IMG/VR virus record: IMGVR_UViG_3300027733_000004
Location: 1-43,597 of that record
DNA: 43,597 nucleotides
Direction: 5' to 3' (one strand)
DNA from: a virus
The position numbers were made by a program, and so were the translations under genes. Positions 6,655 through 43,597 of this stretch are shown here, piece after piece. Below the pieces are notes generated by a model that was not told the origin of the DNA, made no database searches, and worked only from the letters and a program-made list of their open reading frames with translations. Position 1 is the stretch's first letter. Each line of letters begins with the position of its first letter.

Positions 6655-7503
6655 ATGAACCAACTAATCAACAACATCAGCGACCAAGAATACGATGGTC
6701 TTGAAGGCATCAATTTCTCCAAATTGAAGCACCTTCTGGACTCTCCATACCACTTCAAGAAGAACATCGAGAACGCCAGCAACGAAGAAAACACTTCGCT
6801 CAAGGTCGGACTCGCTGTCCATTGTCTATCTCTCACCCCTCAGTTGTTTGGCGACAAGTTCACGGTTGCTCCTGTATGTGACCGCCGCACCAAAGAGGGT
6901 AAGATTATCTGGCAGGACTTCCTTGCGAACAACGAAGGAAAGACCGTGCTAACGCAGGAAGAATTCGACCTTGTTGCGAACTGCTACAAAGCCATCGAGT
7001 CCAATCCTTACTTCAAGTGGGCTAAAGAAGGAGACGAAGTGTTCTTCGAAGCCGGCGGTTCCACCGAAATCTTCGGAAGCAAAATCAAGGGTCGTGTCGA
7101 CCTTTTCAACAAATCCAAGAACGTAATCTTGGACATCAAGACGTGTTCTGAAATTCCAAGCGTAGACAACATCCGAAAGGCTATCTACAAGCACAAGTAT
7201 CATATGCAGGCGTATTTCTACAAGTGCATCGTTGACAACTGCTTCGACACCAATGCCGAGTTCGTGTTCTTGTTCATTGACAAGAAACACTTCAACGCGG
7301 TAGGTCTTGCGAAAGTGGGAAGAGAGTTCTTCAATCGTGCCGCAGAGCAACTGAACGAAGCTCTCTGTCGTTACGAGAATTGCAAGAGCAACGATATCTG
7401 GCCCTCTCTCATCAATTCGGAGACTCCGATGATTGTGGATGCCCACCAGACATTCTTTGCGGATGGTCTTGACATTGACCTCGAGGACTCCGAAGATGTG
7501 TGA
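6655..7503 (+). CDS. RecE-like PD-(D/E)XK exonuclease
   Basis: 282 aa. Predicted dsDNA exonuclease producing 3' single strands for the annealing protein encoded at 9005. The core is visible: GLAVHCL (His56), KGRVDLF (Asp149), VILDIKTC (Asp160 and Lys162, the D-x-K of the fold) and MQAYFYK (Gln185 and Tyr187). It matches the RecE C-terminal / DUF3799 group of phage nucleases. The acidic C-terminus is typical. It shares the operon with an ERF protein, the usual exonuclease plus annealase pairing. Confidence 0.83.
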   Translation: MNQLINNISDQEYDGLEGINFSKLKHLLDSPYHFKKNIENASNEENTSLKVGLAVHCLSLTPQLFGDKFTVAPVCDRRTKEGKIIWQDFLANNEGKTVLTQEEFDLVANCYKAIESNPYFKWAKEGDEVFFEAGGSTEIFGSKIKGRVDLFNKSKNVILDIKTCSEIPSVDNIRKAIYKHKYHMQAYFYKCIVDNCFDTNAEFVFLFIDKKHFNAVGLAKVGREFFNRAAEQLNEALCRYENCKSNDIWPSLINSETPMIVDAHQTFFADGLDIDLEDSEDV

Positions 7504-7505
7504 CC

Positions 7506-8168
7506 ATGAACGAAAAATACACGCAGTTTTCTGGTGTCTTCATCCCCAGAGAGGTCTTGCTTGACCAAGAAGTTCCGGCCAACGCAAAACTAATCTTCGC
7601 AATCGTGCAGTCCCTTGACAATGAAAAGGGCTGTTATGCTAGCAATGAGTATCTCGGAGGTATGCTCGGCTTGTCCGAGTCTGCCGTCCGTGCTTCTTTG
7701 CACATCCTTGAGCATCGTGGCTACATCACCAGAACCATCGAAGACGGCATCAAACGCACATTGAAGACCTGTGTTACGCAGTCTTTTCGTGCCCAACCCC
7801 GCCAGATTTCTGAAGCCACCCCGCCAGAAATCGAGCAGCCCCCCCGCCAGAAATCTGGCACATATGTTAGTAGAAAGAATAAAGTAGTAGATAATAACAC
7901 CCTGCTACTTCCCCCACTCCCTCATTCGGAGGAATTCGCAAAGGTCTGGGACGAATGGGTTATCTTCCGCAAGGAGATAAAAAAGCCGTTGACACCGACC
8001 TCAATCCTTGAACAATTGAAATTCCTAACAGAACAAACAGAACATGACGCAATTACATCAATCAAAAACTCTATTCGAAGTGGGTGGGTTGGGCTTTTCC
8101 CTGTCAAGCAGTCAAACTCCAAGTTCGCCAACAAACTCCTCACCAGCAAAGACCATGAAGCCTTCTAA
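7506..8168 (+). CDS. Winged-helix replication initiator (origin-binding protein)
   Basis: 220 aa. The N-terminal 100 residues look like a MarR/DnaD-type winged helix (CYASNEYLGGMLGLSESAV then the helix ASLHILEHRGYI). A Pro, Gln and Arg rich linker (about 98-145) separates it from a C-terminal helical domain (FAKVWDEWVIFRKEIKKPL through SIRSGWVGLFP) typical of phage replisome organisers. The linker DNA carries iterons and an AT-rich tract, as in lambda O. The next gene is a helicase loader, fitting the O/P-type arrangement. The start could also be GTG at 7500, overlapping the previous stop. Role inferred from domains and context. Confidence 0.75.
   Translation: MNEKYTQFSGVFIPREVLLDQEVPANAKLIFAIVQSLDNEKGCYASNEYLGGMLGLSESAVRASLHILEHRGYITRTIEDGIKRTLKTCVTQSFRAQPRQISEATPPEIEQPPRQKSGTYVSRKNKVVDNNTLLLPPLPHSEEFAKVWDEWVIFRKEIKKPLTPTSILEQLKFLTEQTEHDAITSIKNSIRSGWVGLFPVKQSNSKFANKLLTSKDHEAF
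7801..7905 (+). other. Putative replication origin inside the initiator gene
   Basis: Three iterons of CCCCGCCAGA followed by (A/T)(A/T)TC: cores at 7801-7812, 7823-7832 and 7846-7859, spaced 22 and 23 bp, about two helical turns. The third is a near-palindrome, CCAGA-AA-TCTGG. An AT-rich stretch follows (7861-7898), a plausible unwinding element. The repeats lie in different reading frames of the host gene (PRQIS, PPEIE and PRQKS), so the constraint is on DNA rather than protein. A partial second copy is at 41115-41210. Confidence 0.72.
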
Positions 8169-8829
8169 CTGTGATTGCGGTGGACAGCGTGTTCCTCTCA
8201 CGCTCAATGGAAACATCTCTTGGCCCGGTTTCTTCTGTCCTTCCTGTGAGAGCAAATACACTCTTAACGGCGACCCGAAGCGTGGAGCAGAGTGGGCTTA
8301 CGAGCCTATCGGTATTCCTGTCGAATACACCAAGACTGTAGTGGATAAAATCCCATGCAACAACATGAAGAAAGTTGCAATGGAGTGGGAGGGCTGGAAG
8401 AACGGTCGTTCCATCCTGTTGCACGGAACTACCCGACTCGGCAAGACTCGAGCCGCTTGGGAGATTACTCGTCGTCATTGGAAGTCGTGCTTCAAGAAGC
8501 AATTGTTCTTCACAATGCGTGGCTTCGAGCGTATGATTGACGAAGGTTTCCAGCGTCATGACCATAGCAAGCGTCTTGATGAAATCATCAAGTGTCCGTT
8601 CCTTTACATCGACGACTTTGGCAAGGAAAAGATGACCCAACGTATCGCTTGCGACCTGTTCGCAGTAGTCGATGAACGCACCATCAACCATCGTCCGACA
8701 GTCATCACGACCAACTTTACGTCGTCCGGTCTTCTTGGTCGTTTCGAAGACCAAGAACTCGGTGCCGCAATGATTGGTCGCTTCCGTGACTACTTTGACA
8801 TCGTTGGTGCGAAGGAGGTTCAGTCGTGA
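8155..8829 (+). CDS. DnaC/IstB-like AAA+ helicase loader with zinc ribbon
   Basis: 224 aa; predicted ATPase loading the host replicative helicase. The N-terminus has a four-cysteine knuckle (Cys6, Cys8, Cys28, Cys31). Walker A is GTTRLGKT (91-98), Walker B FLYIDD (149-154), sensor 1 TTNFT (Asn187), and an arginine-finger-like IGRFRDY near 208-213. The start at 8155 is chosen since it begins just before the zinc knuckle and overlaps the initiator by only 14 bases; the frame extends up to 8044, but that would add 37 low-complexity residues. No phage helicase or polymerase is present, so it presumably recruits the host replisome. Confidence 0.82.
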   Translation: MKPSNCDCGGQRVPLTLNGNISWPGFFCPSCESKYTLNGDPKRGAEWAYEPIGIPVEYTKTVVDKIPCNNMKKVAMEWEGWKNGRSILLHGTTRLGKTRAAWEITRRHWKSCFKKQLFFTMRGFERMIDEGFQRHDHSKRLDEIIKCPFLYIDDFGKEKMTQRIACDLFAVVDERTINHRPTVITTNFTSSGLLGRFEDQELGAAMIGRFRDYFDIVGAKEVQS

Positions 8830-9008
8830 AACGTCATTACAATACCAAAGGACGAACTCCTAGATTTGACGACCCCGTTAACCAGCACGGCTCAACAATC
8901 TGCAGAAAAAAATCTGCAGAATTCGCAAAAAAGATGCTTGCCAAAGACGTCGAAAGATGGAAACTACTTTTCTCACGAAACAAATACCAGAAACCACTTG
9001 ACCTATGA
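8826..9008 (+). CDS. Hypothetical basic protein, 60 aa
   Basis: Not recognised. GTG start at 8826 overlapping the helicase-loader stop (GTGA), and its own stop overlaps the ATG of the ERF gene (ATGA), so it is held between two translationally coupled genes. Highly basic, with a CRKKSAEFAKKML helix. Probably nucleic-acid or replisome associated, on context only. Confidence 0.65.
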   Translation: MKRHYNTKGRTPRFDDPVNQHGSTICRKKSAEFAKKMLAKDVERWKLLFSRNKYQKPLDL

Positions 9009-9805
9009 GCCAATACCGACCATACAAGAAATACACTTGGACCGAATTCTCTGATAACTTTATGCCCGACACTACCATGACCAACAACATCGAATACCGT
9101 GCCCAACTTAACGCTGCCCTTGTCGCTGCTATCGCAGAGACGAAGGACGTTCATGCTGACAGCACTAATCCGTTCCACAAGAACAAGTATGCCTCCCTTG
9201 GTGCACACCTTGAGGCTATCAAGCCCATCTTCCAGAAGCACGGCTTGGCTATCCTTCAGTTCCCGACCTCTTGTGATAAGAGCATCGGCGTGAACACCAT
9301 CGTGGTGCATACCTCTGGTGCTTCCATCGAGGAAAGCATCTGCATCCCTGTCGGTGACAGCGTGAAGGGACAGGAGGCTGGTGCTATCATTTCCTATCTC
9401 CGCCGCTATGCTCTCGCCTCCGTTGCCGGTGTCGCTACCGAAGATGATGATGCCGAAATCGACCGCATCGCTCGCACTCCGTCTGCCCCAGCAGTCAAGT
9501 CTTCGAGCGTCCAGACGACCAAGTTCATCCCCAACCCTAACGCCTCTTCTGACATTGCAGGCGAAGTCAATTTCGACCTTCCTGTTCCGTTCGGTAAGGC
9601 AAAGGGAACGAGTCTGAACAATCTTCCTCTCTCCGACCTTGACTATTGGGCTAACAAGTGGGAGCCGAAGCCGTGGGAAAAGACGGGCAAGGTAGGTGCT
9701 AAAGACCTATCGTTAAAGGCCTCTGCACAGGCTCTGTGGTCGATTAAGAACTCCGAGCAGGGTCAACCCTCGGACGACAGCGAAGGGGACGCTATTCCCT
9801 TCTAA
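9005..9805 (+). CDS. ERF-family single-strand annealing protein
   Basis: 266 aa recombinase that anneals complementary single strands, partner of the RecE-like nuclease. The core shows the ERF signature: NPFHKNKYASLGAHLEAIKP (near 54-75) and AGAIISYLRRYALASVAGV then EDDDAE (near 126-150). The C-terminal part is a linker plus a second small region (PFGKAKGTSLNNLP). The extreme C-terminus is DDSEGDAIPF, like the acidic tip of bacterial SSB (DDDIPF type), suggesting it can engage host SSB-binding proteins. Start by ATGA overlap; an internal Met20 is possible. It is followed directly by two tRNA genes. Confidence 0.85.
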   Translation: MSQYRPYKKYTWTEFSDNFMPDTTMTNNIEYRAQLNAALVAAIAETKDVHADSTNPFHKNKYASLGAHLEAIKPIFQKHGLAILQFPTSCDKSIGVNTIVVHTSGASIEESICIPVGDSVKGQEAGAIISYLRRYALASVAGVATEDDDAEIDRIARTPSAPAVKSSSVQTTKFIPNPNASSDIAGEVNFDLPVPFGKAKGTSLNNLPLSDLDYWANKWEPKPWEKTGKVGAKDLSLKASAQALWSIKNSEQGQPSDDSEGDAIPF

Positions 9806-9812
9806 TTGACAT

Positions 9813-9884
9813 GCCCTGTTAGCACAGCGGTAGTGCATCTGTTTTGTAAACAGAGGGTCGCAGGTTCAAATCCTGCACAGGGCT
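9813..9884 (+). tRNA. tRNA-Thr (anticodon TGT)
   Basis: 72-nt cloverleaf: acceptor GCCCTGT/ACAGGGC, D stem GCAC/GTGC, anticodon stem TCTGT/ACAGA with loop TTTGTAA, T stem GCAGG/CCTGC with loop TTCAAAT. All stems pair. CCA is not encoded. Confidence 0.95.
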
Positions 9885-9888
9885 TTTT

Positions 9889-9963
9889 CGACCTTTAGTT
9901 CAACGGATAGAACACCCGCCTTCTAAGCGAGTTATCAAGGTTCGATTCCTTGAAGGTCGACCA
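9889..9963 (+). tRNA. tRNA-Arg (anticodon TCT)
   Basis: Acceptor CGACCTT/AAGGTCG, D stem GTTC/GAAC, anticodon stem CCCGC/GCGAG (one C-A mismatch) with loop CTTCTAA, T stem CAAGG/CCTTG, discriminator A, then encoded CCA (9961-9963). It reads AGA, a codon used heavily in the late genes. It starts 4 bases after tRNA-Thr. Confidence 0.94.
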
Positions 9964-9981
9964 CTTTAACTGAATTCCACA

Positions 9982-10584
9982 TTGAGATACAAACTAGAAC
10001 AACAGTCAACGCTTGAACAGGAAATCTGGGACACAGAAGCCAACAAGCTCGTGATTTCGTTCAACAAGGATGATTTCAATGTGGAATTCAATCCCCTTAT
10101 CCCCGAACTGATTGTCAAGTATCTGAACGACAGGAAGTCGGCAGACAGATACGACCAGCATCAGTTGATTGTTTCCCTGTTTGAACTTGCCAAAAACAAG
10201 AACAAGAAGCAAAACGAACTCATCGAAGTAATCGAAGGCTTGAAAGCCGGCGGACAAGCACTCAACTTCATCATCCCTCCACCCATAGACAATAGAAATG
10301 AATGCATCACCACATCGGAACTTTATAAAACTCAATACTCCCTCGCCAAGAAACAATGGCGTGCCTATTACTCCCGTTTCTACGAAAAGACTCCTACTGA
10401 AGAAGATTATTTCGTTCAGCATATGCATCGCTCTGACCTATTTGGTGTTCGTTCTATTGACGGCGAGTGGTTTATGACCATCAACATCGGAGGCAAGAGC
10501 ATGAAAAAATACCTCGGAAAGTCGGAAAATGTTGCAAAGAGAAAAAGAGATGAGATAATCAGACAAATAGCCGACAATGCCTAA
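9982..10584 (+). CDS. Hypothetical protein with AP2-like C-terminal domain, 200 aa
   Basis: Starts with TTG at 9982; the in-frame stop at 9967-9969 limits alternatives to CTG at 9970. The N-terminal 150 residues are helical and unrecognised. The last 50 (DLFGVRSIDGEWFMTINIGG, then KYLGKSENVAKRKRDEIIR) resemble AP2-like DNA-binding or integrase N-terminal folds: three strands and a helix with GV, W, LG and A-x-x-x-R positions. A DNA-binding role is inferred. It overlaps the phosphoesterase gene by 8 bases. Confidence 0.65.
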   Translation: MRYKLEQQSTLEQEIWDTEANKLVISFNKDDFNVEFNPLIPELIVKYLNDRKSADRYDQHQLIVSLFELAKNKNKKQNELIEVIEGLKAGGQALNFIIPPPIDNRNECITTSELYKTQYSLAKKQWRAYYSRFYEKTPTEEDYFVQHMHRSDLFGVRSIDGEWFMTINIGGKSMKKYLGKSENVAKRKRDEIIRQIADNA

Positions 10585-13235: not shown

Positions 13236-13533
13236 TTTGTTTAAGTTTAGATAGGAATTTATTACGAACAAAGTCAAAAAGTTCAGGAGCAAAAGAACCA
13301 GAAATAGAACAAATGACGCTTTTATAGACTTCATCTAAATCTACTTCATGCAAGGAGAAGAAAACAAGCAAGCCAACAATCGAGGCAGCGACTATCTTCT
13401 TCGTCCAGATTGACATTACGAACCTCTCATTGGTGAAGATAAGCCTCATCAGCATGCCAAGACCGCCAAGGATTGCCATAATCCATCCAGCCTTTTTAAA
13501 GGATGTAATCAACTCCTCGTAGTTATCGTTCAT
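13228..13533 (-). CDS. Holin candidate, 101 aa
   Basis: Two clear membrane helices (about 16-33, GWIMAILGGLGMLMRLIF, and 46-61, KIVAASIVGLLVFFS) and a possible weaker third segment near 70-84, with a basic C-terminus (RNKFLSKLK). Size, topology and position immediately before the transglycosylase and spanin support a holin that permeabilises the inner membrane; it may belong to the LydA-like class. The ATG overlaps the stop of the giant gene as ATGA. Confidence 0.72.
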   Translation of the reverse strand: MNDNYEELITSFKKAGWIMAILGGLGMLMRLIFTNERFVMSIWTKKIVAASIVGLLVFFSLHEVDLDEVYKSVICSISGSFAPELFDFVRNKFLSKLKQNE

Positions 13534-16500
13534 CGATTATATCTCTTTTCTATTTCACTTCTTTCACCCTGTGTAAGTCCGGGTCTGACAACCTCAAGAT
13601 TTCTATTCTTGATGATATCTTCATTGGATGCATTGGACGCATCTTGAAAAGACTTGTAAGAACCGACCATCATACCCTTCGGGCTATACACATAGAACAG
13701 GTTAGGTCTATACTTGGTGTTCTTGCCTGTCAATGTATTGGCGATAGCACCAGAAATACTCGGCACGACAACCTTCTTTCCGCCAAGGTCAAGAACGTCC
13801 TTCGGGGCAATCTGTGCGATGAGGTAGCCAAAGTCATTCAAGTATGTGATGTTCTTGGTGGCAACGCCTGCTCTTCTGATGGCATTGATTGTCTGGAGGT
13901 GGGTTTCTGCAAAATGAGCAGCCTCCATGTTATTGGTAGTCGTGGGAGCAGGACCCTTCTTTTCTCTCTCAATGAATGTTTCGTAGTCCTTGATAAGACC
14001 ATCCGACCACTTAAGTGCAAGTTCAAGAGACTGTCTGTGTCTTGCGACATCCTGCTCTTTCTCGACAGCACCCTCATGCCACACGTCATAATCAACCTGT
14101 GCGGCATCAATCTCAGCCCTCATCGCAAGCCATTCTTCATTGGTATAGTGTGCCGGCTTAGGACCTGTAGGTGTCTTCGGTCTGACAGGATTGAGAGGAA
14201 CTTTCTTTCTGTCTGCAGCATCTTTTTCACTTGCGACCATTTCTCTGAATGTCTGTTGACCTTCAGCAAGAACCTTATTATCAAAATACCAACCAAAGTA
14301 ACCTTTCTTTCTGAAGTCCTGAATCCATGCAATCGTCTTTGATGGACTAGACTCAACAACGTCAGCACCAAGTTCTTGCACCATAGACGCAGCAACTTCG
14401 TTAGCCCAAGCAGCATCACCGACGTTACGTAGGTGCTTTTTGAACGCCCAATAAACAGGGTTCTTGTCAGCAAATCTGACCTGCTGCTGAACTCCGTTTT
14501 CAACAGTAGTTTTCTTCCACTCCATGACTCCAGACTCGGTAAGTTGTCTGTGCTTCTCGTTTGTGATAGCAACCTCGACTGAACCAGACTCAACTGCGTC
14601 TTGAATTGTCGCCATAAGGACATCTGTTCGAGCACCCTGTTGGTTGCCCTTAAGTGACATATTTGTCCTGATGGTAAGACCGGATTTGGTGTCAACAAGG
14701 TCAAACTTCTTGGTGCCAGCGTTTCTCTTAACAGTCCAAGTTCCGTCTTTGGAAATAAATTCGGTTCTTCTACCGGCCTCAAATGTAGTGCCGACAGGAA
14801 TAAAGCCAGCCTCACTCATGCTCATTTCAAACGCATTGCCAATCTGGGGAGAGTTAGACAATGGGTTTTCTACCGAGTGCTTCATGGCTGCGTTTTCAGC
14901 ATCCGTTCTGAGTTTGAATTCTCCGGAAACTCTTCTTCTCTCGGGGTCAAAGGCAATCCATCGCTGCTCCGTGACTCCGTGGAACGCAGGGTTCTTTCTT
15001 TCAACCAGCCACAAGGAGTAACCAGAGCCGTGTCTTGCACCAGACAGAACCCTATCTTCTCCCATGTTATACTGATTTGACATAGTTGTAATCTCACTAT
15101 TTGTGATATTAAACCACGCGCTACCTGTCGCATGGTTGGCTTTACCCCAGGAATATACGTTATTGGTAAATGGAATCATTGCCGGTTCACCACTCTTTGT
15201 GAGAACTCTTCCAATAGAGCCAAGAACTCTGTCTGGTCTGATTTTTGTGAAAATCATCTTTGCGTCCCAATCAGCACCAGAACCATACTCATTCTGGTTC
15301 TTGGCTCTCAATCTTGCAAAGAATTCAGAAGCCTCGTCTCTTTCAATGTCTTTGTCACGAAGTGTCTTAAGTCTGGCTTTTTCATCAGTAGACAGTTTCT
15401 TTGCGTCCTTGGACTCAAGTGCAATCAGTTCTCCAAGTTCGCTATCAGGAAAACCAATTGTTCTCAGGATGACATCAGCCATCTTCATGGCTACCTTCTG
15501 GTTGCCATTTGCATACGGAAGCAGCACCTGCCATGACCTCTTGGGAGGAAATCTCGTAGCGTTACCTTGATACGGTCCGCCCTGCGAGAAGTTCATCAGA
15601 ACCTTCTCCTGTGCCTCGATGAACATGTTGTAATTGGTAAACATGTTCTTGATTTCCTGATGCGACCATTCGTATCTTGTGCCCTTTGAGTCCTTGAGAC
15701 TTCCTTCCCAAGAAGCCTTAGACCTATCATTCCAAGCGTCGACATCGACAACCCAGAAATACATCATATCAACCGGCTCCATGTTCTTATCCGTTATGTA
15801 GCCTTTCTTGTCTCTTTCCTTCAACTTATAGCCAGACTCATCAAGAGTTGTTTGGTCAATGACAACGGCAAACGGAGCAAACCTTCTCATGCCTTGGTGA
15901 CCTCTTACGACCTTTCCTGTTTCGGTCATATGAGTAACACCTGCATAATCGACGAGGAAAACAGGAATGTGTCCAGCTGTCTTGTTTTTCTGATTTTCGG
16001 CATCAAGCACGTCGCTTCTGCCAATCGCATCAAGCATCTTGGCGATAGTGTCAAGATGGTGGTTGTTCATTCTGAACGGAGATGAAGCACCAAATTCACC
16101 GGTAGTTTTCAGCCATTCGATAAGCCTTTGGCTCTGTTCCTTGCTTGGAGTTCCAGAAAGAACAATCTTTCCATTCTTATTCTTGAACGGAAGCAGTCCG
16201 TAAATCTGACCTCTATCGTCAGTATCAACGACGACGTTCTTGAAGACTTCAATGGGCTTTGACTCTTCCTTGAATAACTGTGCAATCGGTGCCTTGAACT
16301 TGCCATCTTTGCCTAGCCATTCTTTTCTTCCCGTTGCAAATGCCCAAAGAATTCTTCTCTGTCTTGCTTCGGGAGAATTAGAATCTTCTTCACTATGGAT
16401 GGCATCAAACATGAAGTTGTCGTTCATGCTAATCTGAGAAGGAACACCTCTGGTCATCGCATGTGCTGCATCAACCGTCTGTTGAAGCGAAGGATGAACA

Positions 16501-19500
16501 GGTGCGTATTTTCCGGTTACCTCATCCCACAACTCCGTGGAAGAAAAGAACTTTGCAGGGTCAAGAGAGTCGTTGCCTTCCATCTTGAAGCCAAACTTTC
16601 TGCCAAGGTCAATGACAGTAGAACGCATCATTTTATCGTAGACACCGCCCATCATGAACATGTCTGTCCACATCTTGCTTCCTGCAATTCTTTCCTCAAG
16701 TCGAGCAATCTCCTGTTTTCTGTTTTCAACTTCTTCGTGAGTCATCTTGGACTCATCGATGTCTCTGGAGTAATAAGCAAGAAGGTTGTTTGCATCATCT
16801 TGAGTAACCATGTCCATGAACGTAGTCTGACCAAAGGCAAACTTGAAGAAGTTCTTCCAGACTCCGTTGCCAGCCACAATAGGAGAAGTTTCCCATCTTC
16901 CGTGGAAAGACTGAGGAGTTGCTCCTGTTTTTACCGCTTGAGGATTGGCAACAAGCTGACGCATCTGGTATACCTTTCCCCAGATTTCAAGGAAGACATC
17001 TTGCATGTGTCTTGTGTCAGCCTTATTCATCTGCCATTGTTTTTTGCCATGCTCCCATCTTGCAAGAAAGATTGGACCTTGTTCCGGTCCAAGTCCGTCT
17101 GCGTATGCTTTGGCATACATGTCCATGAAGGCAATAGCCTGTTCTGGAGTCTTTGCCACAGTCGGACCTTCCTTCATCACGAACTCATTATGCTCATTCA
17201 GTTCCCACTTGCCAAGGAAGTGACGCATGAACGTTGTTCTGTTGGACGCAAGTGCGTCGGAAAGGAAGAGGGCGTGTGCTAGTTCTTCAAGGACGATTGA
17301 AGCACCGGGTCTTGTCGTTGATGTAGCAGGTCTAAGGAAAGCATCCTTGTCGATGAGGATTTGTGTCTTTGACACCATGTTGCCAAAACCGTCATCGGTA
17401 GGAACGTGAAACAGGATAACGCCTTCTCTTTTTTCAATCGTCACCCCGTTATCAAGCGTCATGAATTCTCCAATTCTTGCACTTCTGGTAGGAGATAGCG
17501 ATGGAACCAACTTGCTTCTTTCTCCTTCAAGTGCTGAAATCTGAGTATTAGCATCAAGAACCTGCTGCTTGTTGTTTGCAAGTTCTTTTGATAGTTCAAC
17601 CCAAGAGGACTTAAACGAGTTAATCTTGCTGATTGTCTTTGCACTAAGATTTGATGTTATGTCAACAGGAGCTCCATCTTTGCCCGCTGCAGTAACGACA
17701 AAGCCCTGTTCGTTGAGTTTAACATTCTCGACCGAAACTCCAGCTTCTTGTGCTACAAGTTTTGCGACATCTCTGAACTTTGAAATTCTGTCTTTACCAT
17801 CCTTTTCAAGATTAACTACAAGTTCGTTAAGCTTTTTAATCTTAAGGTCAATGTCACCGATACCTGCTTCTGCGGCAAGCGAGTCGGTGTGTGTCTTCAT
17901 CATCTGCTTGGCATGTGCTTCAGCCTCGATTCCGGTAAGTCCAAGCTCTTTTGCTTGCTGCAGGAATTGGTCTTTTGCGGCTTCCGCAAGTTCTGGAGTG
18001 GCAAACTCTCTGCTGCCCCAAAGTGCAACAGCTGCGGATGTAACAGAAGCGTCATGAAACTCGACATTAGTTCCACTCAACGCTCTGTTGATAAGCGATA
18101 TATAAGCGGCAAACTCCTTCTGTGCAAGGATGGATTGATTGACTTTCAGTATCATCGAGCCAGGAGCATTCATCTTGCCGTCTCGTCTTTGAACAAGCGT
18201 ATCAATCATTTCTCTGATTGTAACAGCCTGACTGGGGTCCATTTCAGCCATTCTTGCGGAAAGTTCCATCAGGTCTAGGACTGTTCTTTCATTAATTCCG
18301 TGCGTAGGAGACACGTTTCTGATGAAAGAACGATTCATTACGCTCAACGACTTTGTTCCAAACGTATAGCCTGTTGCAGTTCCAAGCATCTGCGTGTCGC
18401 CAAGCCACATTAGTCCTTCATTGACAAACGAAGAAGCCATCACGTTGCCAATCTGATAGACACCGGCACCGATACCATGCTCTACAAGTCCGTTGGCAAT
18501 GCTCGAAAACTGCTTAAGTGCTGTAAGTCTTTCAATCTTAGCCATCAACTTAGCATGTTCTTCCTTGGTGCTAAGACCCGTTTTGACACCGGCAGCGGTT
18601 CTTTCAAGTTCGGCAAGTGCGTCATCAAGTTGAGTTCCGTAACTCTTACGAAGAATTCCAGAAACAGAGCGTGCTTCACTTGTCGCAAGAGAAGAAGCTT
18701 TCAGCCAGTCATTCCAGAACTCAAAGAAATAACCACCATAACCAGCAAGGTTGGCAATAGACCAAATCTTTCTTCCTTCATTCCACTTGGCAGCCCAATT
18801 GCCCGTAGATGTCACGGTCATGTTCATCGATGCGGCCTTATCTACGTCTCCTGTAGCACCAAGGATTGCAGCAACTTCGCCCTGCGATGGCATATTAAAT
18901 CTGGACACTTCTTTGCTTGTCTTATCAAGACCAGCTTGAACACCCCTGAATGCTCTGGAAAGACCGTAAGTAATACCACGACCAGGCATATTCATCAGAA
19001 GGTCTTCGATTGCTTCCAAGTCTTTGTATCCAGCAAGGTCACTAGCATCAAACTTTCTCCACGCATCTCCAACCTCTTTTCTTATGTTGCTGACCATCGA
19101 TTCCGTGATATTGACAGCACTTGTCTTACCAGCAGGCATTGCAATTCCGCCCTGCATCAATCTCTGATAAATCTCAAAATTAGAAGCGTCATCCCAAAGT
19201 CCGGGTTCAATTTCAGAAAGTCTCTGTCTGACCCTTTTGATGGTTTCTTCGGATGCCGTAGAATAGTTGATGTTTCTGCCTTCTTTTACAATCTTGGCAA
19301 ACTGTCTTCTGACGCCAGCAATTGAATTGCTCTTGTTGATGATGTCAGTCTTTAACGCCTCAACCATCTCCTTTGGGATTGTTTCAAGGGTCTTTGTCGC
19401 AGGATTAAACCATCTTGCTCTGCCTGAAATAATTCTTTCAATAGCTTCATAGTCATCGATGACCATGCCATTTGCCTTTGCTGTATCCTTGACAGACTCA

Positions 19501-21224
19501 AGAAGCACTCTAGATGTACCTTCAAGCTTGCCTCCTTTTCTTTCGATGTCAGACGCAATAAGTCTGGCTTCAATTGCCGCTTCCTTGGCTGCACCTTCTG
19601 CAGCACCCTTGATGGTTTCTACTCCACCAAAACCAACAAGCTTGCCAAAGTTCTTATAGATAGCCCTTGCAGTCCAGATGTCAAGGAAAGTAGATGCATC
19701 TTCTCTTACTCTCTGGCTTCCAGCACCGCTAATCTTAGTAAAAAGACCTTGTTCCGGTATGCTTGCAATGCCTTCACGCATAGCTTGGACTGCGTTGATA
19801 TAACGCATTTGAGCCTTGATTTGAACGTCTTCCCATGTGATTGCACCAAGTGCGTATCTGCTTTCATCGGCAAGGCTTGAGCCAATCTCACTACCGAAAT
19901 ATTCTGTGATTACAGAATTAGGGTCAGTAGATGTAACAAGATAAGAAAGTCCTGCGGTTGCCGTTACGATGCCATCAAGCAAAGAAAGCACGGAACCGGC
20001 AGTATTCTGACCTGCAGCCAAAGCAGGGTTTTCGGCACCAGTAAACGCACCTTTCTTTCTAAGTTTTGCGTAAAGGTCAACGACCTTCTTTGATTGCTCT
20101 TCAATCTCTGTGATTGACGTAGGGTCTTTAGAGTCAAGGAACATTCTCAAAGAGTCATGCTCGGAAATGCCTCCGTGTTTTTCCCTAAAACCTTTGAGTT
20201 CAGCGGGAAATCCTCCTAATGTGTCCTTTGAAATTCTTCTTTGCTCAAGAAGCTTGTTTACCTCAAAGATAAAACTCTGTTTAAGTTCTCCGTTTTCACC
20301 AGAGGCATTCTTGAAGTCATCGCTCCATGTGTAATCAGGATGAACAAAGGCTTCAAGCGTAGCAGGAGCAAGGTCCACCACAGAACCATAAAGATGACCA
20401 AGTGAATTCTTGGCATTATTGACCCAATCTGAAAATCCGGGATTTCTCTGCATTCTCTTTGCAGCCTTGAACATCTCAAGGTCGGACTTTGACTCTGGAT
20501 TAAGCGGAACTCCAGACTGCAGTCTTTCAAGGTATGTCGTAGGATATTGTTCTTCTACAAGTCCTGCCTTTTTTGCGGCATCCCAAACCTTAGAATGAAT
20601 GTCCGTTCTATAGATTCTGGAATACTTGTTGTTTCCTCCAAGGTATTGTGCACGCTCTTCCGGGGAAATTAGTTTCTTTTCAAGAAGGATTTTAGTGAAA
20701 AACTCTTGGTCACGCAGGGCGTTTGGGTCTTCCTTGACAATATCCATAACGCCTTCCTGCATAAGTCTGTTGAACAAAAAGTTGCCTTGTTCTCCTTCTT
20801 TCAGAAGGTTCGTGATGACTTCATCCTTGTTTGCACCTTTTGACGTAAGCCAAGAACCGTAAGAAGAACGAACGGGCTCTTTAGGCATGATTTTATCATT
20901 ATTTGCCTGAACTCCCGGAATAGAAGCATCCATCGATGGAAGAGCACTAATGCGGTCTGCATCCTCTCTCCACTTCTTGTAGTTAACGTCAAATATCGAT
21001 TTTTCCGCAAAAGCAGCATCAATATCAGAGCCTATGGCCCTTGCTTCCTTTGAGTCACTATTATTGAAAGAAGTAATGGCTGTTTTGTTCTCTCTAGTTC
21101 CTGGAAGAACGTAGGAAGGTGGATAAAACGCTCTCTTGTCGTAGCTAGAACCTGCGGCAAACGGCTCTTTTGGCTTAACTACTTCTGTGCTTGGAGCCTC
21201 GAAAACGCCGGGATTTTGTGCCAT
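13530..21224 (-). CDS. Giant virion-associated protein, about 2564 aa (ejection/polyvalent type)
   Basis: The largest gene, 18 percent of the genome. ATG chosen at 21224; the frame begins at a TTG at 21236. It sits after three other predicted internal proteins and before the lysis genes, the place of large ejection proteins in short-tailed phages. Near residue 1308 is VLEELAHALF, which looks like a zincin helix but with Glu in place of the first His of HExxH, so metal binding is doubtful. Multiple helical and mixed segments follow. Charged helical N- and C-termini, no signal peptide. No RNA polymerase motifs were noticed. Likely carried in the capsid and injected; enzymatic content unknown. 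A domain search on segments would be decisive. Confidence 0.7.
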   Translation of the reverse strand: MAQNPGVFEAPSTEVVKPKEPFAAGSSYDKRAFYPPSYVLPGTRENKTAITSFNNSDSKEARAIGSDIDAAFAEKSIFDVNYKKWREDADRISALPSMDASIPGVQANNDKIMPKEPVRSSYGSWLTSKGANKDEVITNLLKEGEQGNFLFNRLMQEGVMDIVKEDPNALRDQEFFTKILLEKKLISPEERAQYLGGNNKYSRIYRTDIHSKVWDAAKKAGLVEEQYPTTYLERLQSGVPLNPESKSDLEMFKAAKRMQRNPGFSDWVNNAKNSLGHLYGSVVDLAPATLEAFVHPDYTWSDDFKNASGENGELKQSFIFEVNKLLEQRRISKDTLGGFPAELKGFREKHGGISEHDSLRMFLDSKDPTSITEIEEQSKKVVDLYAKLRKKGAFTGAENPALAAGQNTAGSVLSLLDGIVTATAGLSYLVTSTDPNSVITEYFGSEIGSSLADESRYALGAITWEDVQIKAQMRYINAVQAMREGIASIPEQGLFTKISGAGSQRVREDASTFLDIWTARAIYKNFGKLVGFGGVETIKGAAEGAAKEAAIEARLIASDIERKGGKLEGTSRVLLESVKDTAKANGMVIDDYEAIERIISGRARWFNPATKTLETIPKEMVEALKTDIINKSNSIAGVRRQFAKIVKEGRNINYSTASEETIKRVRQRLSEIEPGLWDDASNFEIYQRLMQGGIAMPAGKTSAVNITESMVSNIRKEVGDAWRKFDASDLAGYKDLEAIEDLLMNMPGRGITYGLSRAFRGVQAGLDKTSKEVSRFNMPSQGEVAAILGATGDVDKAASMNMTVTSTGNWAAKWNEGRKIWSIANLAGYGGYFFEFWNDWLKASSLATSEARSVSGILRKSYGTQLDDALAELERTAAGVKTGLSTKEEHAKLMAKIERLTALKQFSSIANGLVEHGIGAGVYQIGNVMASSFVNEGLMWLGDTQMLGTATGYTFGTKSLSVMNRSFIRNVSPTHGINERTVLDLMELSARMAEMDPSQAVTIREMIDTLVQRRDGKMNAPGSMILKVNQSILAQKEFAAYISLINRALSGTNVEFHDASVTSAAVALWGSREFATPELAEAAKDQFLQQAKELGLTGIEAEAHAKQMMKTHTDSLAAEAGIGDIDLKIKKLNELVVNLEKDGKDRISKFRDVAKLVAQEAGVSVENVKLNEQGFVVTAAGKDGAPVDITSNLSAKTISKINSFKSSWVELSKELANNKQQVLDANTQISALEGERSKLVPSLSPTRSARIGEFMTLDNGVTIEKREGVILFHVPTDDGFGNMVSKTQILIDKDAFLRPATSTTRPGASIVLEELAHALFLSDALASNRTTFMRHFLGKWELNEHNEFVMKEGPTVAKTPEQAIAFMDMYAKAYADGLGPEQGPIFLARWEHGKKQWQMNKADTRHMQDVFLEIWGKVYQMRQLVANPQAVKTGATPQSFHGRWETSPIVAGNGVWKNFFKFAFGQTTFMDMVTQDDANNLLAYYSRDIDESKMTHEEVENRKQEIARLEERIAGSKMWTDMFMMGGVYDKMMRSTVIDLGRKFGFKMEGNDSLDPAKFFSSTELWDEVTGKYAPVHPSLQQTVDAAHAMTRGVPSQISMNDNFMFDAIHSEEDSNSPEARQRRILWAFATGRKEWLGKDGKFKAPIAQLFKEESKPIEVFKNVVVDTDDRGQIYGLLPFKNKNGKIVLSGTPSKEQSQRLIEWLKTTGEFGASSPFRMNNHHLDTIAKMLDAIGRSDVLDAENQKNKTAGHIPVFLVDYAGVTHMTETGKVVRGHQGMRRFAPFAVVIDQTTLDESGYKLKERDKKGYITDKNMEPVDMMYFWVVDVDAWNDRSKASWEGSLKDSKGTRYEWSHQEIKNMFTNYNMFIEAQEKVLMNFSQGGPYQGNATRFPPKRSWQVLLPYANGNQKVAMKMADVILRTIGFPDSELGELIALESKDAKKLSTDEKARLKTLRDKDIERDEASEFFARLRAKNQNEYGSGADWDAKMIFTKIRPDRVLGSIGRVLTKSGEPAMIPFTNNVYSWGKANHATGSAWFNITNSEITTMSNQYNMGEDRVLSGARHGSGYSLWLVERKNPAFHGVTEQRWIAFDPERRRVSGEFKLRTDAENAAMKHSVENPLSNSPQIGNAFEMSMSEAGFIPVGTTFEAGRRTEFISKDGTWTVKRNAGTKKFDLVDTKSGLTIRTNMSLKGNQQGARTDVLMATIQDAVESGSVEVAITNEKHRQLTESGVMEWKKTTVENGVQQQVRFADKNPVYWAFKKHLRNVGDAAWANEVAASMVQELGADVVESSPSKTIAWIQDFRKKGYFGWYFDNKVLAEGQQTFREMVASEKDAADRKKVPLNPVRPKTPTGPKPAHYTNEEWLAMRAEIDAAQVDYDVWHEGAVEKEQDVARHRQSLELALKWSDGLIKDYETFIEREKKGPAPTTTNNMEAAHFAETHLQTINAIRRAGVATKNITYLNDFGYLIAQIAPKDVLDLGGKKVVVPSISGAIANTLTGKNTKYRPNLFYVYSPKGMMVGSYKSFQDASNASNEDIIKNRNLEVVRPGLTQGERSEIEKRYNR

Positions 21225-21261
21225 GATACGATTCAATACTTGAATTATTGCTTTTCAAGCA

Positions 21262-40498: not shown

Positions 40499-41029
40499 TT
40501 AAGAAATAAAAACTCTTCCGTTAGAAGCAACTCGAAAATCACCGACCCATCTCCCACCCCTATGTCTGGCATTGATAATTGAATTAACTCTCAATTGCGA
40601 GGAGTCCCTTACAGCCACATTGACAGTCTCCCCTCTTATCTCGCATCTTACAAGACGCTTGTTGGGATACTTGCTTCTAACGATGGCAGGAACAGTCCCC
40701 GTGGGTGCGGCTGGAGTCGAACCAGCATCTTGACCGTTATGAGCAGTAGGTTCTGACCCTTGAACTACGCACCCGGAAATGGTGGAGGCTGGGGGAGTCG
40801 AACCCCCATTATCCGATTGCAGGTCGGGTGTCCTGCCATTGGAAGAAGCCCCCGTAATGACAACAAGCTTATTCAAGCCCTTCTCTGTCCATAGAATTAC
40901 AAACGTCCCGTTATTCTTGTCCTTCTTGACATAATCTTCGCCAATCTCAAATACACCAGACTTTCTCAACTCGATAAGTTTGGCTTTATTGATATTGAAG
41001 TTTTCTGCAATAAACTTCTCTTTATACAT
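40499..41029 (-). CDS. ORF of 176 aa running through two tRNA genes
   Basis: The N-terminal 55 residues (MYKEKFIAENFNINKAKLIE ... FVILWTEKGLNKL) look like a small DNA-binding domain. Residues about 59-109 are the translation of the tRNA-Ala and tRNA-Met genes on the same strand (Ser, Gly, Thr, Pro rich). The C-terminal 60 (YPNKRLVRCEIRGETVNVAV, then RHRGGRWVGDFRVASNGRVF) looks like a small beta domain. Either one protein whose linker is tRNA sequence, or two gene remnants bridged by an open frame; no internal ATG, GTG or TTG start for the C-terminal part is evident before the domain. Start at 41029; the frame extends upstream to 41155 across iterons. Confidence 0.5.
   Translation of the reverse strand: MYKEKFIAENFNINKAKLIELRKSGVFEIGEDYVKKDKNNGTFVILWTEKGLNKLVVITGASSNGRTPDLQSDNGGSTPPASTISGCVVQGSEPTAHNGQDAGSTPAAPTGTVPAIVRSKYPNKRLVRCEIRGETVNVAVRDSSQLRVNSIINARHRGGRWVGDFRVASNGRVFIS
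40702..40774 (-). tRNA. tRNA with CAT anticodon (Met, or Ile2)
   Basis: 73 nt: acceptor GGGTGCG/CGCACCC, D stem GTTC/GAAC, anticodon stem TACTG/CGGTC (one mismatch, one T-G) with loop CTCATAA, T stem GCTGG/CCAGC, discriminator A. A paired first position argues against an initiator. Elongator Met cannot be told from lysidine-modified Ile. CCA is not encoded. Confidence 0.88.
40780..40853 (-). tRNA. tRNA, most likely Ala (anticodon TGC), atypical loop
   Basis: Acceptor GGGGGCT/AGCCTCC with a G3-T70 wobble pair and discriminator A73, both alanine identity elements; encoded CCA (40780-40782). D stem TCC/GGA (3 bp), anticodon stem CCCGA/TCGGA with loop CCTGCAA, T stem GGGGG/CCCCC. Centred reading gives TGC but with C at position 33 instead of the near-universal T. 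A Cys reading (GCA with T33) breaks the stem. Confidence 0.75.
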
Positions 41030-41056
41030 ATCGATAACTCTACCAGAGATATCGAT
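41030..41056 (-). promoter_or_regulatory. 27-bp near-perfect palindrome abutting the late start codon
   Basis: ATCGATAACTCT (41030-41041) and AGAGATATCGAT (41045-41056) are inverted repeats with one mismatch around ACC. It ends one base before the ATG at 41029. As DNA it could be an operator for the late operon; as RNA it forms a hairpin over the ribosome site. Confidence 0.75.
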
Positions 41057-41114
41057 TGTCGCAAGTAAAAATTTTAAAAAATCATACCACCCACCTGAAA
41101 AATAGAGGGGGGGT

Positions 41115-41210
41115 GCCAGATTTCTGAGGGGGGGGGCGCCAGATTTCTGGCACATATAGTAATAGAAGATATAAATAGAAGATAATAAAAGGAGGTCAGC
41201 AGATTTCTAG
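41115..41210. repeat. Second iteron cassette, similar to the intragenic origin
   Basis: GCCAGATTTCTG at 41115-41126 and GCCAGATTTCTGGC at 41138-41151 (23 bp apart, the same spacing as inside the initiator gene), plus a degenerate GCAGATTTCTAGC at 41199-41211. The 51 bases from 41138 align with 7846-7897, including exact blocks TCTGGCACATAT and GATAATAA. G-runs up to nine long replace the C-runs of the other copy. Candidate origin or initiator-binding operator ahead of the late operon. Confidence 0.72.
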
Positions 41211-41218
41211 CACCTCTA

Positions 41219-41411
41219 TTGACATGATTGTTTGTAAACTATTTGAACGTTAAGTTTACAAAGATGACATTGACAGAGGTCTTTTGTAAAAAATTATGGG
41301 TGTTGGAATCAATCAGGCCTGCAATCTTTTACAAATGTAAAAGACCCCCTCCCCCCCTATTTTTTACACTTATTTTACGTTTTTTTTCGTTAAAAAGTTG
41401 TAAAAAACGCT
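41219..41411 (+). promoter_or_regulatory. TTGACA boxes and TTTACA/TGTAAA operator array
   Basis: TTGACA at 41219-41224 and 41270-41275, each followed 6-7 bases later by TTTGTAAA. Inverted repeats: TTTGTAAACT/AGTTTACAAA (41231-41262), TCTTTTACA/TGTAAAAGA (41325-41344), and TTTTTTACA/TGTAAAAAA across 41360-41407. C-runs at 41345-41357. Reads as a control region for the rightward operon and its leader. -10 elements are not convincing. Confidence 0.6.
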
Positions 41412-41464
41412 CAATCTATCAATCGGGGATTGCAGGATAACCCCTAAATCTCCATTGTATCTAT

Positions 41465-41926
41465 ATAGGGTTAATCACCCTATGCTCTTTGAAAGTTTAA
41501 GCAGGCAAGGCAAACGGGACACCCTACGGGGGCGTCTTATCTGTCAGATGCAAGCGGGGGCAAACCCTCCAAAGTAACGGACAATCCGAAGGGGTTGCGG
41601 ACGGAAACTGTTAGCACGATACGCTAAACCATAGGCGTAGGCGTGATAGCGTGAGAAAATAGCGTAGGGACACTTACGCCGAAGTATCAATACCGGGCAA
41701 TCTTTGTAAGTGCGTAATACTACTGCCATTGTAGGTCGGGCAGGGACGCAGAGCCGTGAAACATCTAGACAGGTCAAATCCGTGCAGTCGTGCAAGCGTG
41801 TTAGTTTCCTTTAACTTTCCCATTAGGCGGGGTGCGTATTGATACGCTAGCGTCTAGGCTATTGCTGGTAGCATAAACCAGCACAGCAGGGGGCTGAGTA
41901 AGCCCTTGTTGGTTAGAAAGGAAACT
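41465..41926 (+). ncRNA. Candidate large structured RNA or structured 5' leader, about 460 nt
   Basis: No protein-coding frame, but dense complementary segments: ATAGGGT/ACCCTAT (41465-41483), GCGTCT/AGATGC (41532-41551), CAATCC-GAAG-GGGTTG (41582-41597), TACGCTA/TAGGCGTA with one bulge (41620-41639), CACTTAC/GTAAGTG (41671-41712), CTGCC/GGCAG (41723-41743), GCGTA-TTGA-TACGC (41834-41847), GCTGGT/ACCAGC (41864-41882) and GGGCT/AGCCC (41891-41905). A 10-bp stem AGTTTCCTTT/AAAGGAAACT (41803-41812 with 41917-41926) closes a multi-branch junction and includes the ribosome site of the next gene. No match to RNase P, tmRNA, group I intron or 6S core motifs that I could find. Size, phage setting and tRNAs nearby invite comparison with ROOL and GOLLD RNAs. 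Confidence 0.6.
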
Positions 41927-41931
41927 CCAAG

Positions 41932-42252
41932 ATGTCGAACATCAAAAACGACCCCTACAATCGCCCCGAACTCGAGGCGGTTGCTCTGGACTCGGTTATC
42001 AAAGTTATCGACGGCTCTGCCATTACGATTGCGGCTAACTTCCGCCTCGCTAATGGTCAGAAGACCATCGGCGTCATCGTCCTCCCGAAGCACTTCCTGA
42101 CTGTTGGTCAGGCCAGCAATCACGCTGTCCTGTTCATCAGCAAGGGCTTCTTCGAGAGCGAAGACGACTTCAATATCCGCTGCGAAGAGATGGGCGTGAC
42201 GCGTGAAGAGCGTGTCGAACGCCCTGGGCAGTCCAAGAAGAATAAGGCTTAA
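41932..42252 (+). CDS. Hypothetical protein, 106 aa
   Basis: Not recognised. A strand-rich N-terminal domain (VIKVIDGSAITIAANFRLAN, then KTIGVIVLPKHF) and a charged, basic C-terminus (PGQSKKNKA). Preceded by AAAGGA 9 bases from the ATG, one of the few strong ribosome sites in the genome, which lies in one strand of a 10-bp stem. First gene of the small rightward operon with a structured leader. Confidence 0.75.
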   Translation: MSNIKNDPYNRPELEAVALDSVIKVIDGSAITIAANFRLANGQKTIGVIVLPKHFLTVGQASNHAVLFISKGFFESEDDFNIRCEEMGVTREERVERPGQSKKNKA

Positions 42253-42383
42253 CCGCTAAGTTCCAATGGCTGGTAATCGTGGGGAGGGCAACCTCCCCAC
42301 TTCTTGGAGTCCTTTCTTTTCCTTTCCCCAAGCACCTCGGGGCTGTGAGGTGCAATCATCAACAAGCAAAAAAAGGAAACGAC
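42253..42383 (+). promoter_or_regulatory. Structured intercistronic leader (hairpins, ribosome-site pairing)
   Basis: A 9-bp hairpin GTGGGGAGG-GCAA-CCTCCCCAC (42279-42300, GNRA loop) follows the upstream stop. Then a pyrimidine stretch with TTTCCTTT (42318-42325), hairpin GCACCTC/GAGGTGC (42332-42353) and the ribosome site AAAGGAAA (42372-42379), which is complementary to TTTCCTTT. The weak T content after the first hairpin makes it a processing site or weak terminator. Confidence 0.6.
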
Positions 42384-42692
42384 GTGAAGACGAACACTTC
42401 TGGTGTTCTCGCCTCCTACCTTGACACCTGCAAGGAACGCGACAAGTGGACTATGAAGCTCCACAAGCTGCGTAACCCTGGCATGAAGGCTGTCAAGAGC
42501 CGTGGCGAGTTCCGGAAGCATCTCATGTCCCTGTTCGGTCCCAAAGAGGGCAGCAGGGCGTGGGCTTTGTTCATCCGTAGTATCCGCAAGGAGATGCATC
42601 ATGCCAAGACCGAGCACGCCTATTACAAGGTTAAGGCTCAAGGTCTTGTCAAGGTGCTTCGCTACCTGCGGGTCAGCGGTTACGAACGCTAG
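42384..42692 (+). CDS. Hypothetical basic protein, 102 aa (GTG start)
   Basis: Not recognised. GTG at 42384 follows AAAGGAAACGAC; no nearby ATG serves. Very basic, mainly helical (ERDKWTMKLHKLRNPGMKAV, RKHLMSLFG, RKEMHHAKTEHAYYKVKA). The composition suggests RNA or DNA binding. Middle gene of the right-end operon. Confidence 0.7.
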   Translation: MKTNTSGVLASYLDTCKERDKWTMKLHKLRNPGMKAVKSRGEFRKHLMSLFGPKEGSRAWALFIRSIRKEMHHAKTEHAYYKVKAQGLVKVLRYLRVSGYER

Positions 42693-42863
42693 TCCGTGTA
42701 GTCATCATGGGGAGGCAATCCTCCCCATTTATTGTAGTTTATGAGCACAATCGCTATCATAGTGCTCGTCCTTGTGGTTCTAGCGAACTCAGAGGACTAG
42801 CGACGACTAGCACCCGTAAGGTGCCCAACTTTCCCCAGCAATGGGGTGATAGAAAGGAAACAA
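42693..42863 (+). promoter_or_regulatory. Structured intercistronic leader, second copy of the module
   Basis: Hairpin ATGGGGAGG-CAAT-CCTCCCCAT (42707-42728), the counterpart of that at 42279. Then GAGCAC/GTGCTC (42743-42767 region), CACC/GGTG (42811-42823), and CCCCA-GCAA-TGGGG (42833-42846) beside CTTT (42829-42832) facing AAAG (42853-42856) in the ribosome site AAAGGAAA (42853-42860). Confidence 0.58.
42741..42800 (+). CDS. Possible 19-aa hydrophobic peptide
   Basis: ATG at 42741, TAG at 42798-42800. Ten Ile, Val and Leu residues in a row after the first five (AIIVLVLVVL), then ANSED. Looks like a membrane peptide. It lies within a structured leader, has no ribosome site, and may be chance. 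Low confidence. Confidence 0.22.
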   Translation: MSTIAIIVLVLVVLANSED

Positions 42864-43094
42864 ATGAAAAACGAGATTAGCGATAAAGAGTGGTTTCACT
42901 CTGCTCCGTATCGCTGGGCAATCGAAGTAAGTTGGAAGTGTCCTGTCTTCAAAGACCTTGGCTATGCCAAGTTTGATGAAGAACGGCACGCTCAAGCTTA
43001 TCAGAAGTTCATCCGTAGTCTGTGGCCTAAAGCCTTGATTATCCGGAAGGATGTCCAGCGTAGCGAGAGCACATATCGCCTAGCGTGTAAGTAA
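42864..43094 (+). CDS. Hypothetical protein, 76 aa
   Basis: Not recognised. Trp- and Lys-rich small protein (EWFHSAPYRWAIEVSWKCPV). Preceded by AAAGGAAACAA; the ATG at 42864 is preferred over the frame start at 42846 because of that ribosome site. Third gene of the operon, followed by a terminator. Confidence 0.7.
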   Translation: MKNEISDKEWFHSAPYRWAIEVSWKCPVFKDLGYAKFDEERHAQAYQKFIRSLWPKALIIRKDVQRSESTYRLACK

Positions 43095-43111
43095 TATACA
43101 CGTGTAATACA

Positions 43112-43134
43112 GGGGTGTGACCCACCCCTTTTTT
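43112..43134 (+). terminator. Rho-independent terminator
   Basis: GGGGTG (43112-43117) pairs with CACCCC (43123-43128) around a 5-nt loop, then TTTTTT (43129-43134). It separates the 76-aa gene from the last gene. Confidence 0.82.
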
Positions 43135-43144
43135 ACTTTCCCCC

Positions 43145-43486
43145 ATGGATAACAACAAAGGCTCGCAACCTACTGCGGAACGATCCACCTACATCGTGTT
43201 CTGCCAATACAAGGAGAATTATGGTATCCATAATAACCCTCCTATTGAGTATTGGAAGTTCAAAGGAGGTCGCACTATCCTTGTGCGTAATTGTAAGGAT
43301 GATGTCCAGGCTCGAGCAGCTGTCGATGCATCAGAGCACGTCTGGAGCAATGAGGCTTCGGTGTCTTATGTGTGCCATGTAGCACGCTATGAAGGCACCT
43401 ACGTCGCAGAGCTCGATGAAGACCGTGAGATGTATCGAGAGCGTGGCACCGAACTGGATGTGCCAGAAATCACCATCGATGAGTGA
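43145..43486 (+). CDS. Hypothetical protein, 113 aa
   Basis: Not recognised. Compact protein with YIVFCQYKENYGIHNNPP and WKFKGGRTILVRNC near the N-terminus (strands), a helix, then an acidic C-terminus (ELDEDREMYRERGTELDVPE). ATG 43145 lies only 11 bases after a terminator and has no ribosome site, so it may be expressed from readthrough or a promoter near 43085-43110 (inverted repeat GTGTA/TACAC). It ends directly before the strong terminator at 43493. Confidence 0.72.
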   Translation: MDNNKGSQPTAERSTYIVFCQYKENYGIHNNPPIEYWKFKGGRTILVRNCKDDVQARAAVDASEHVWSNEASVSYVCHVARYEGTYVAELDEDREMYRERGTELDVPEITIDE

Positions 43487-43597
43487 TGGTGCAAGGTCAG
43501 CCTACGGGCTGGCCTTTTTTTGTGCCTTTTTATATCTTTACATGTGCTGCCCAGGCGAGTGGGCGTGATAGCGGTGCAATCAATCATTCAATCATTC
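43471..43597. repeat. Terminal direct repeat, copy 2
   Basis: Identical to 1-127. Contains the end of the last gene, its terminator (43493-43522) and the first two and a bit repeats of the CAATCATT array. Confidence 0.97.
43493..43522 (+). terminator. Rho-independent terminator (duplicate of 23-52)
   Basis: Same UNCG-looped hairpin and T-run as at 23-52, ending the last plus-strand gene. Confidence 0.93.

Follow-up and report, generated by a model that had tools for sequence, protein, structure and literature searches.

A putative boxA-headed leader RNA upstream of a small-gene operon in an uncultured phage and its relatives

The window analysed here, the whole viral DNA stretch of 43,597 nt, carries a terminal direct repeat of 127 bases and thus is probably complete as a circular map, with 43,470 bases. 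Relatives of its terminase are numerous in IMG/VR, those among named phages are distant, and one scan of bacterial genomes yielded no confirmed relative of this protein. The region under study (41465-41931) is flanked by a leftward gene, whose true start was placed at about 41029 by alignment, and by a rightward gene for a 106-aa protein beginning at 41932. The only other contig that carries this region is 100% identical over 19 kb and therefore belongs to the same phage. A preliminary description had proposed a large structured RNA without a coding frame at this place. Its account of the surroundings was borne out: the region holds no convincing reading frame, it is bordered upstream by an AT-rich stretch bearing operator-like palindromes and downstream by the 106-aa gene with a clear ribosome site, and two tRNAs are located about 600 bp away on the opposite strand.

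The operator-like palindromes GCCAGATTTCTGGC, GCTAGATTTCTAGC, and GCCAGAAAACTGGC (41105-41220), with G runs between them, adjoin the start of the leftward gene. Counterparts are present at the equivalent place in relatives, and the half sites seem to co-vary between phages. The two tRNAs, tRNA-Met and tRNA-Ala (40701-40774 and 40780-40853), form in-frame, sense-oriented parts of the gene at 40499-41029 on the minus strand, which encodes a conserved two-domain protein with the tRNAs in its linker, so that their translation yields the linker SSNGRTPDLQSDNGGSTPP.... In the relative L005 one tRNA (91-165) occupies the same linker position, and other relatives have an ordinary linker. A consensus scan revealed a promoter-like site, TTGACA-16-AATTAT, at 41270..41297 on the plus strand and no further plus-strand candidate downstream of 41297; the site is part of a TTGACA...CTTTTTGTAAAAAATT block which was recognised by eye in relatives. 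A replication origin at the region was rejected, the skew extremes being located elsewhere, at 5.8 and 29.1 kb.

Four small genes follow the region on the plus strand. The first (41932..42252), encoding the 106-aa protein, has equivalents as first genes in relatives. This protein is without a Pfam or PHROG match, its homologues in more distant phages are limited to weak matches within one long frame, and its predicted structure (mean pLDDT 47) was not usable. The second gene (42384..42692, 102 aa) has homologues in L008, L009, and L012. It is followed by a terminator-like hairpin with a weak T run (42707..42728), the third gene (42846..43094, 76-82 aa depending on the choice of start), another terminator-like hairpin (43111..43129), and the fourth gene (43145..43486, 113 aa), of which L012 has a homologue. 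All three hairpins of this type are on the plus strand; the last one, at 43493..43516, marks the end of the operon and has similar counterparts in L008 and L012, where they take the same position. Between the start of the region and the first gene, a scan of the plus strand found no terminator-like site. In six relatives (L010, L093, L013, L015, L016, and L081) a strong terminator is already reached after one or two small genes; the arrangement thus cannot have read-through of a long operon as its general purpose.

The region begins with a boxA, a feature overlooked in the preliminary description. In detail, positions 41484..41494 of the plus strand read GCTCTTTGAAA, which is identical to the boxA of bacterial rrn leaders and may represent an rrn-type NusB-S10 signal. 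Together with the next three bases, GTT, it forms GCTCTTTGAAAGTT, 14 bases identical to rrn sequence, and both GCTCTTTGAAA and GCTCTTTGAAAGTT occur in 16S rRNA leaders of the phylum to which genome G004 belongs. The boxA-like pattern GYTCNTTRA was present in the 16S leader or the spacer of 15 of the 17 rrn loci from this phylum and of 22 of the 23 from the phylum containing the Ignavibacteria. Among rrn loci from bacterial phyla, GTTCTTTGA, GTTCATTGA, and GCTCTTTGA were found upstream of 16S or 23S rRNA, and GYTCTTTAA is the prevailing form in the phylum of Pantoea (Pseudomonadota). The window's boxA differs at one base from the gamma-proteobacterial consensus GYTCTTTAANA (PMC5725501). Since the window contains six occurrences of GYTCWTTGA and 2.9 would be expected by chance, only position and conservation single out the boxA at 41484-41494. 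Exact matches to an 18-mer around boxA in bacterial genomes were discarded, as their number (11) was near chance level and none was shown near a 16S gene.

Immediately 5′ of boxA, the predicted fold contains a 7-bp hairpin (ATAGGGT/ACCCTAT, 41465..41483, plus strand) at the place taken by boxB in rrn leaders. Within 30 nt after boxA, the predicted ensemble contains no hairpin of the boxB kind, with its adenine-rich loop. No N-like protein was recognised among the four operon genes; N proteins are known to diverge beyond recognition. A switch in which boxA pairs with the stretch before the start codon appeared in several predicted folds and was rejected (combined p 0.29).

For comparison, the divergent region was extracted from related phages by means of the terminase, the leftward gene, and the first rightward gene. 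All relatives examined have a non-coding leader ahead of the equivalent small first gene. The leaders range in length from about 100 to about 470 nt, a variation that speaks against the conservation of a single elaborate fold, and their sequences are mostly unalignable, with little conserved besides the 5′ end and the ribosome site. The constant motif comprises 9-11 bases, namely GCTCTTTGAAA in the window and GTTCATTGA(C/T/A)A or GTTCTTTGA in relatives. The exact rrn-type boxA 9-mer GYTCWTTGA is found in 8 of 11 orthologous leaders or, counted by independent lineages, in five out of eight, versus a mean of 0.04 and a maximum of 1 in shuffled sequences. The L008-type leaders (L008, L009, and L089) and that of L012 contain only a candidate with one mismatch, ATCTTTGACA, and the leader of L014 shows GTTCTTCGA in place of the exact boxA. 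Just after boxA, the window harbors a further short conserved element, AGCAGGCAAGGC (41500..41511, plus strand), the predicted 5′ strand of a long-range helix; it is identical at 11 of 12 positions in L081 and was aligned with L006. The near identity of the leaders of L089 and L090 (1 difference in 470 nt) was rejected as evidence of slow leader evolution since these two phages are just as similar in other stretches.

Five relatives with short leaders (L013, L015, L016, L010, and L093), in which boxA is located 151-157 nt before the start codon, share a fold of about 131 nt headed by boxA. A model based on three of the sequences retrieves the other two with E-values of 1e-6 and 8e-6. In the alignment of all five, 15 of 32 pairs show changes in both partners, a count reached in 0 of 500 shuffles and compared with 0-5 in slid controls; as the alignment was fitted to its model, such counts lean towards the model. 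RNAalifold's own prediction from the same alignment likewise contains 15 pairs changed on both sides. Many of the double changes represent one event each because the five relatives form two sets of near relatives. The orthologous place of L081 matches the model weakly (12.1 bits; E 0.0085, with a small search space). In these six phages, AGUA and GAA flank a hairpin, an arrangement which by eye resembles a bulged-G (loop E) motif. The RNA is absent from Rfam, and covariance models of it found no match in 32 mostly more distant phage records, an outcome of little weight as the search had no positive control. Positions 41030-41950 of the window showed no real match to model R1, even unfiltered, and none to model R2. 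Judged from these searches, the leader of the window is outside the ~131-nt family, though it occupies the same place and is also headed by boxA. Relatives do possess a smaller covarying RNA at this place.

The preliminary description had offered two readings, a stand-alone RNA and a long leader under regulation. The latter is supported by the boxA at the start, the lack of a terminator-like site before the first gene, and the presence of leaders in every relative. We consider it fairly probable that the region is the boxA-headed 5′ untranslated leader of the operon 41932-43486 and recruits host NusB-S10 for antitermination. It is known that NusB-S10 binds boxA, which is both required and enough for rrn antitermination complexes (PMC10250234), and that a boxA relieves Rho-dependent repression arising from an extended non-coding 5′ UTR (PMC4807359). 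In addition, boxA elements precede CRISPR arrays (Stringer et al., as cited in PMC7862264). From these published functions we infer that the leader recruits a host complex to the polymerase. In the proposed course of events, RNA polymerase would transcribe the leader from an upstream start, and the transcribed boxA would be bound by host NusB-S10 (NusE), whereby the polymerase is modified. The long untranslated leader could then escape Rho termination, and the intergenic hairpins at 42707 and 43111 would more likely be passed by the modified polymerase. The folded RNA 3′ of boxA would constitute a leader domain whose size and sequence change quickly among relatives, and the leader may also control translation. 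The conserved boxA at the leader start suggests that the phage borrows the host machinery by which bacteria sustain transcription across rRNA genes. In the short-leader relatives the strong terminator comes early, so that the benefit must lie in the leader itself, which may shield the transcript from Rho, regulate the first gene, or titrate Nus factors.

Several known systems resemble this arrangement. Bacterial rRNA operon leaders (boxB-boxA-boxC, rrnTAC) share with the window the boxA sequence, in some rrn leaders, as well as a hairpin immediately before it and a long untranslated RNA after it, but the window's boxA leads into a phage protein operon without rRNA. In lambda nutL/nutR and other N-like antitermination systems, including the mEpimmI phages (PMC11893012), boxA likewise lies in a phage operon leader before a small first gene, nutL being located about 200 bp upstream of N, and lambda-like operons also have hairpins between downstream genes. 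In contrast, the window's leader is much longer; furthermore, the window has no identified boxB hairpin with an A-rich loop or N-like protein, and the units of several relatives end after one or two genes. The boxA elements of suhB and other 5′ UTRs (PMC5725501) are comparable in that they belong to the untranslated leader of a protein gene with a possible link to translation. However, the boxA of suhB is close to the Shine-Dalgarno sequence (SD), whereas that of the window is 448 nt before the start codon. The elements ahead of CRISPR arrays similarly head a long non-coding transcript; the window differs in having no repeats and coding genes downstream.

Leaders with boxA are thus known, and what is new here is their occurrence in a phage group where the boxA is of the rrn type, the leader RNA is variable or covarying, and no N protein can be recognised. 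To our knowledge, the use of boxA by phages has been documented mainly in lambdoid phages of gamma-proteobacteria which possess N proteins. An rrn-type boxA leader without a recognisable N would extend the capture of host Nus factors to other bacteria. The put RNA of HK022 is a short RNA of two hairpins which acts on polymerase without protein factors. As a tentative proposal, the related uncultured phages may use fast-evolving boxA-headed leader RNAs as mimics of the start of pre-rRNA to capture the Nus complex, with the ~131-nt form as a new RNA family. Their purpose, proposed just as tentatively, could be processive transcripts without an N protein or the withdrawal of Nus factors from host rRNA synthesis. 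The boxA leader offers precise sequences that can be mutated, and the ~131-nt RNA can be modelled now.

Control of translation was weighed as a different explanation. The leader of the window measures 449 nt, and pair probabilities predict two domains on the plus strand. Domain 1 (41505..41793) is held by the pairs 41505-41511/41787-41793 and 41539-41550/41762-41774, and domain 2 (41803..41926) is closed by a 10-bp helix, AGTTTCCTTT/AAAGGAAACT (41803-41812/41917-41926), which covers the ribosome site of the first gene with a predicted P of 0.89. The ensembles of L006 and L008 show the same organisation, in which a large domain is followed by another that is closed over the ribosome site, with P 0.95 and 0.92 for the helix at the equivalent place. 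According to this explanation, the ribosome site is masked within 41803-41926 until a protein, possibly the 106-aa product, or the loading of Nus factors opens it, and boxA would act in repression, as it does in suhB or lambda N. Nus factors at boxA repress translation of suhB, and nutL represses N (PMC5725501), which speaks in its favor. In a test of the SD helix, p was 0.046 in L006 and 0.044 in L008 but 0.16 in the window, where the SD-sequestering helix is suggestive only and not significant; no consistent helix exists in the short-leader relatives (p 0.04-0.96), and purine-rich SDs readily find pyrimidine partners. We therefore regard control of translation as an unlikely explanation.

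The units of the six relatives with early strong terminators, which comprise only boxA and structured RNA followed by one or two small genes and the terminator, point to another possibility, namely that a short, structured, strongly terminated transcript headed by boxA acts as a decoy which titrates NusB-S10 from host rRNA operons during infection. With so few genes per unit, little would be gained by distal read-through. The rrn type of the boxA fits such a role, and over-expressed nutL RNA was found to titrate Nus factors and to lower rRNA expression (PMC4807359). Nevertheless, each leader offers only one copy of boxA, very high expression would be needed, and the unit of the window runs on over four genes, which makes a decoy quite unlikely as the explanation.

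The ROOL/GOLLD-like alternative among the initial readings, a large and novel structured RNA that stands alone, would agree with about 450 nt of non-coding sequence, many stems, and tRNAs close by; like ROOL and GOLLD, the region is found in a phage near tRNA genes and has no protein product. Some of the stems described earlier recur in the predicted ensemble, namely the TTGA hairpin (41834-41847, P 0.95) and the long-range helix 41539-41550/41762-41774 (P 0.96-0.99), while the GAAG hairpin is present but weak (P 0.42). The presumed folding beyond chance was not confirmed: the fold energy of 41465-41926 corresponds to a z of about -2.4, with 1 of 100 shuffles equally low, yet 10 of 62 control stretches of 462 nt from the same genome are as low or lower, and fold energy was thus rejected as evidence of a structured RNA. 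From boxA to the start codon z is -1.6 to -1.8, the antisense strand of the region reaches -2.1, and 41640-41820 folds no better than shuffles. A comparison with Rfam, as recommended earlier, found no family at gathering or permissive settings. Nothing except tRNAs reached the gathering score, and with E up to 5 just two matches far below threshold appeared, both outside the region or at its edge; covariance models of ROOL, GOLLD, OLE, and other Rfam families gave no match to the region. Distant blastn and tblastn searches in annotated phages were also without a match. Unlike ROOL and GOLLD, the region has no Rfam match or conserved fold, serves as a gene leader, and is shorter than GOLLD. The lack of an Rfam match, a fold energy at genome background, and leaders of about 100-470 nt with neither size nor sequence conserved among relatives leave the ROOL/GOLLD-like reading without support; as the region is also contiguous with the downstream gene and starts with a cis-acting transcription signal, a stand-alone RNA is very unlikely. 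Most improbable is an ordinary spacer or 5′ UTR with boxA match and stems by chance, for which a fold energy usual for this genome and the six boxA-like 9-mers versus 2.9 expected could be cited, against the position and conservation of boxA in relatives, the covariation in five of them, and the 14-base rrn identity.

Elsewhere in the window, the genes for an amidoligase-like protein (526 aa) and a glutamine-amidotransferase-like protein (350 aa) adjoin at 454-3068 on the minus strand, the former having relatives in several related phages. A protein of 2568 aa (13530-21236, minus strand) had no Pfam match above the cut-off. Two further tRNAs (Thr and Arg) are located at 9813-9963, and near them 6655-10584 contains matches to DUF3799 (PDDEXK-like) and to an IstB/DnaC-like ATPase.
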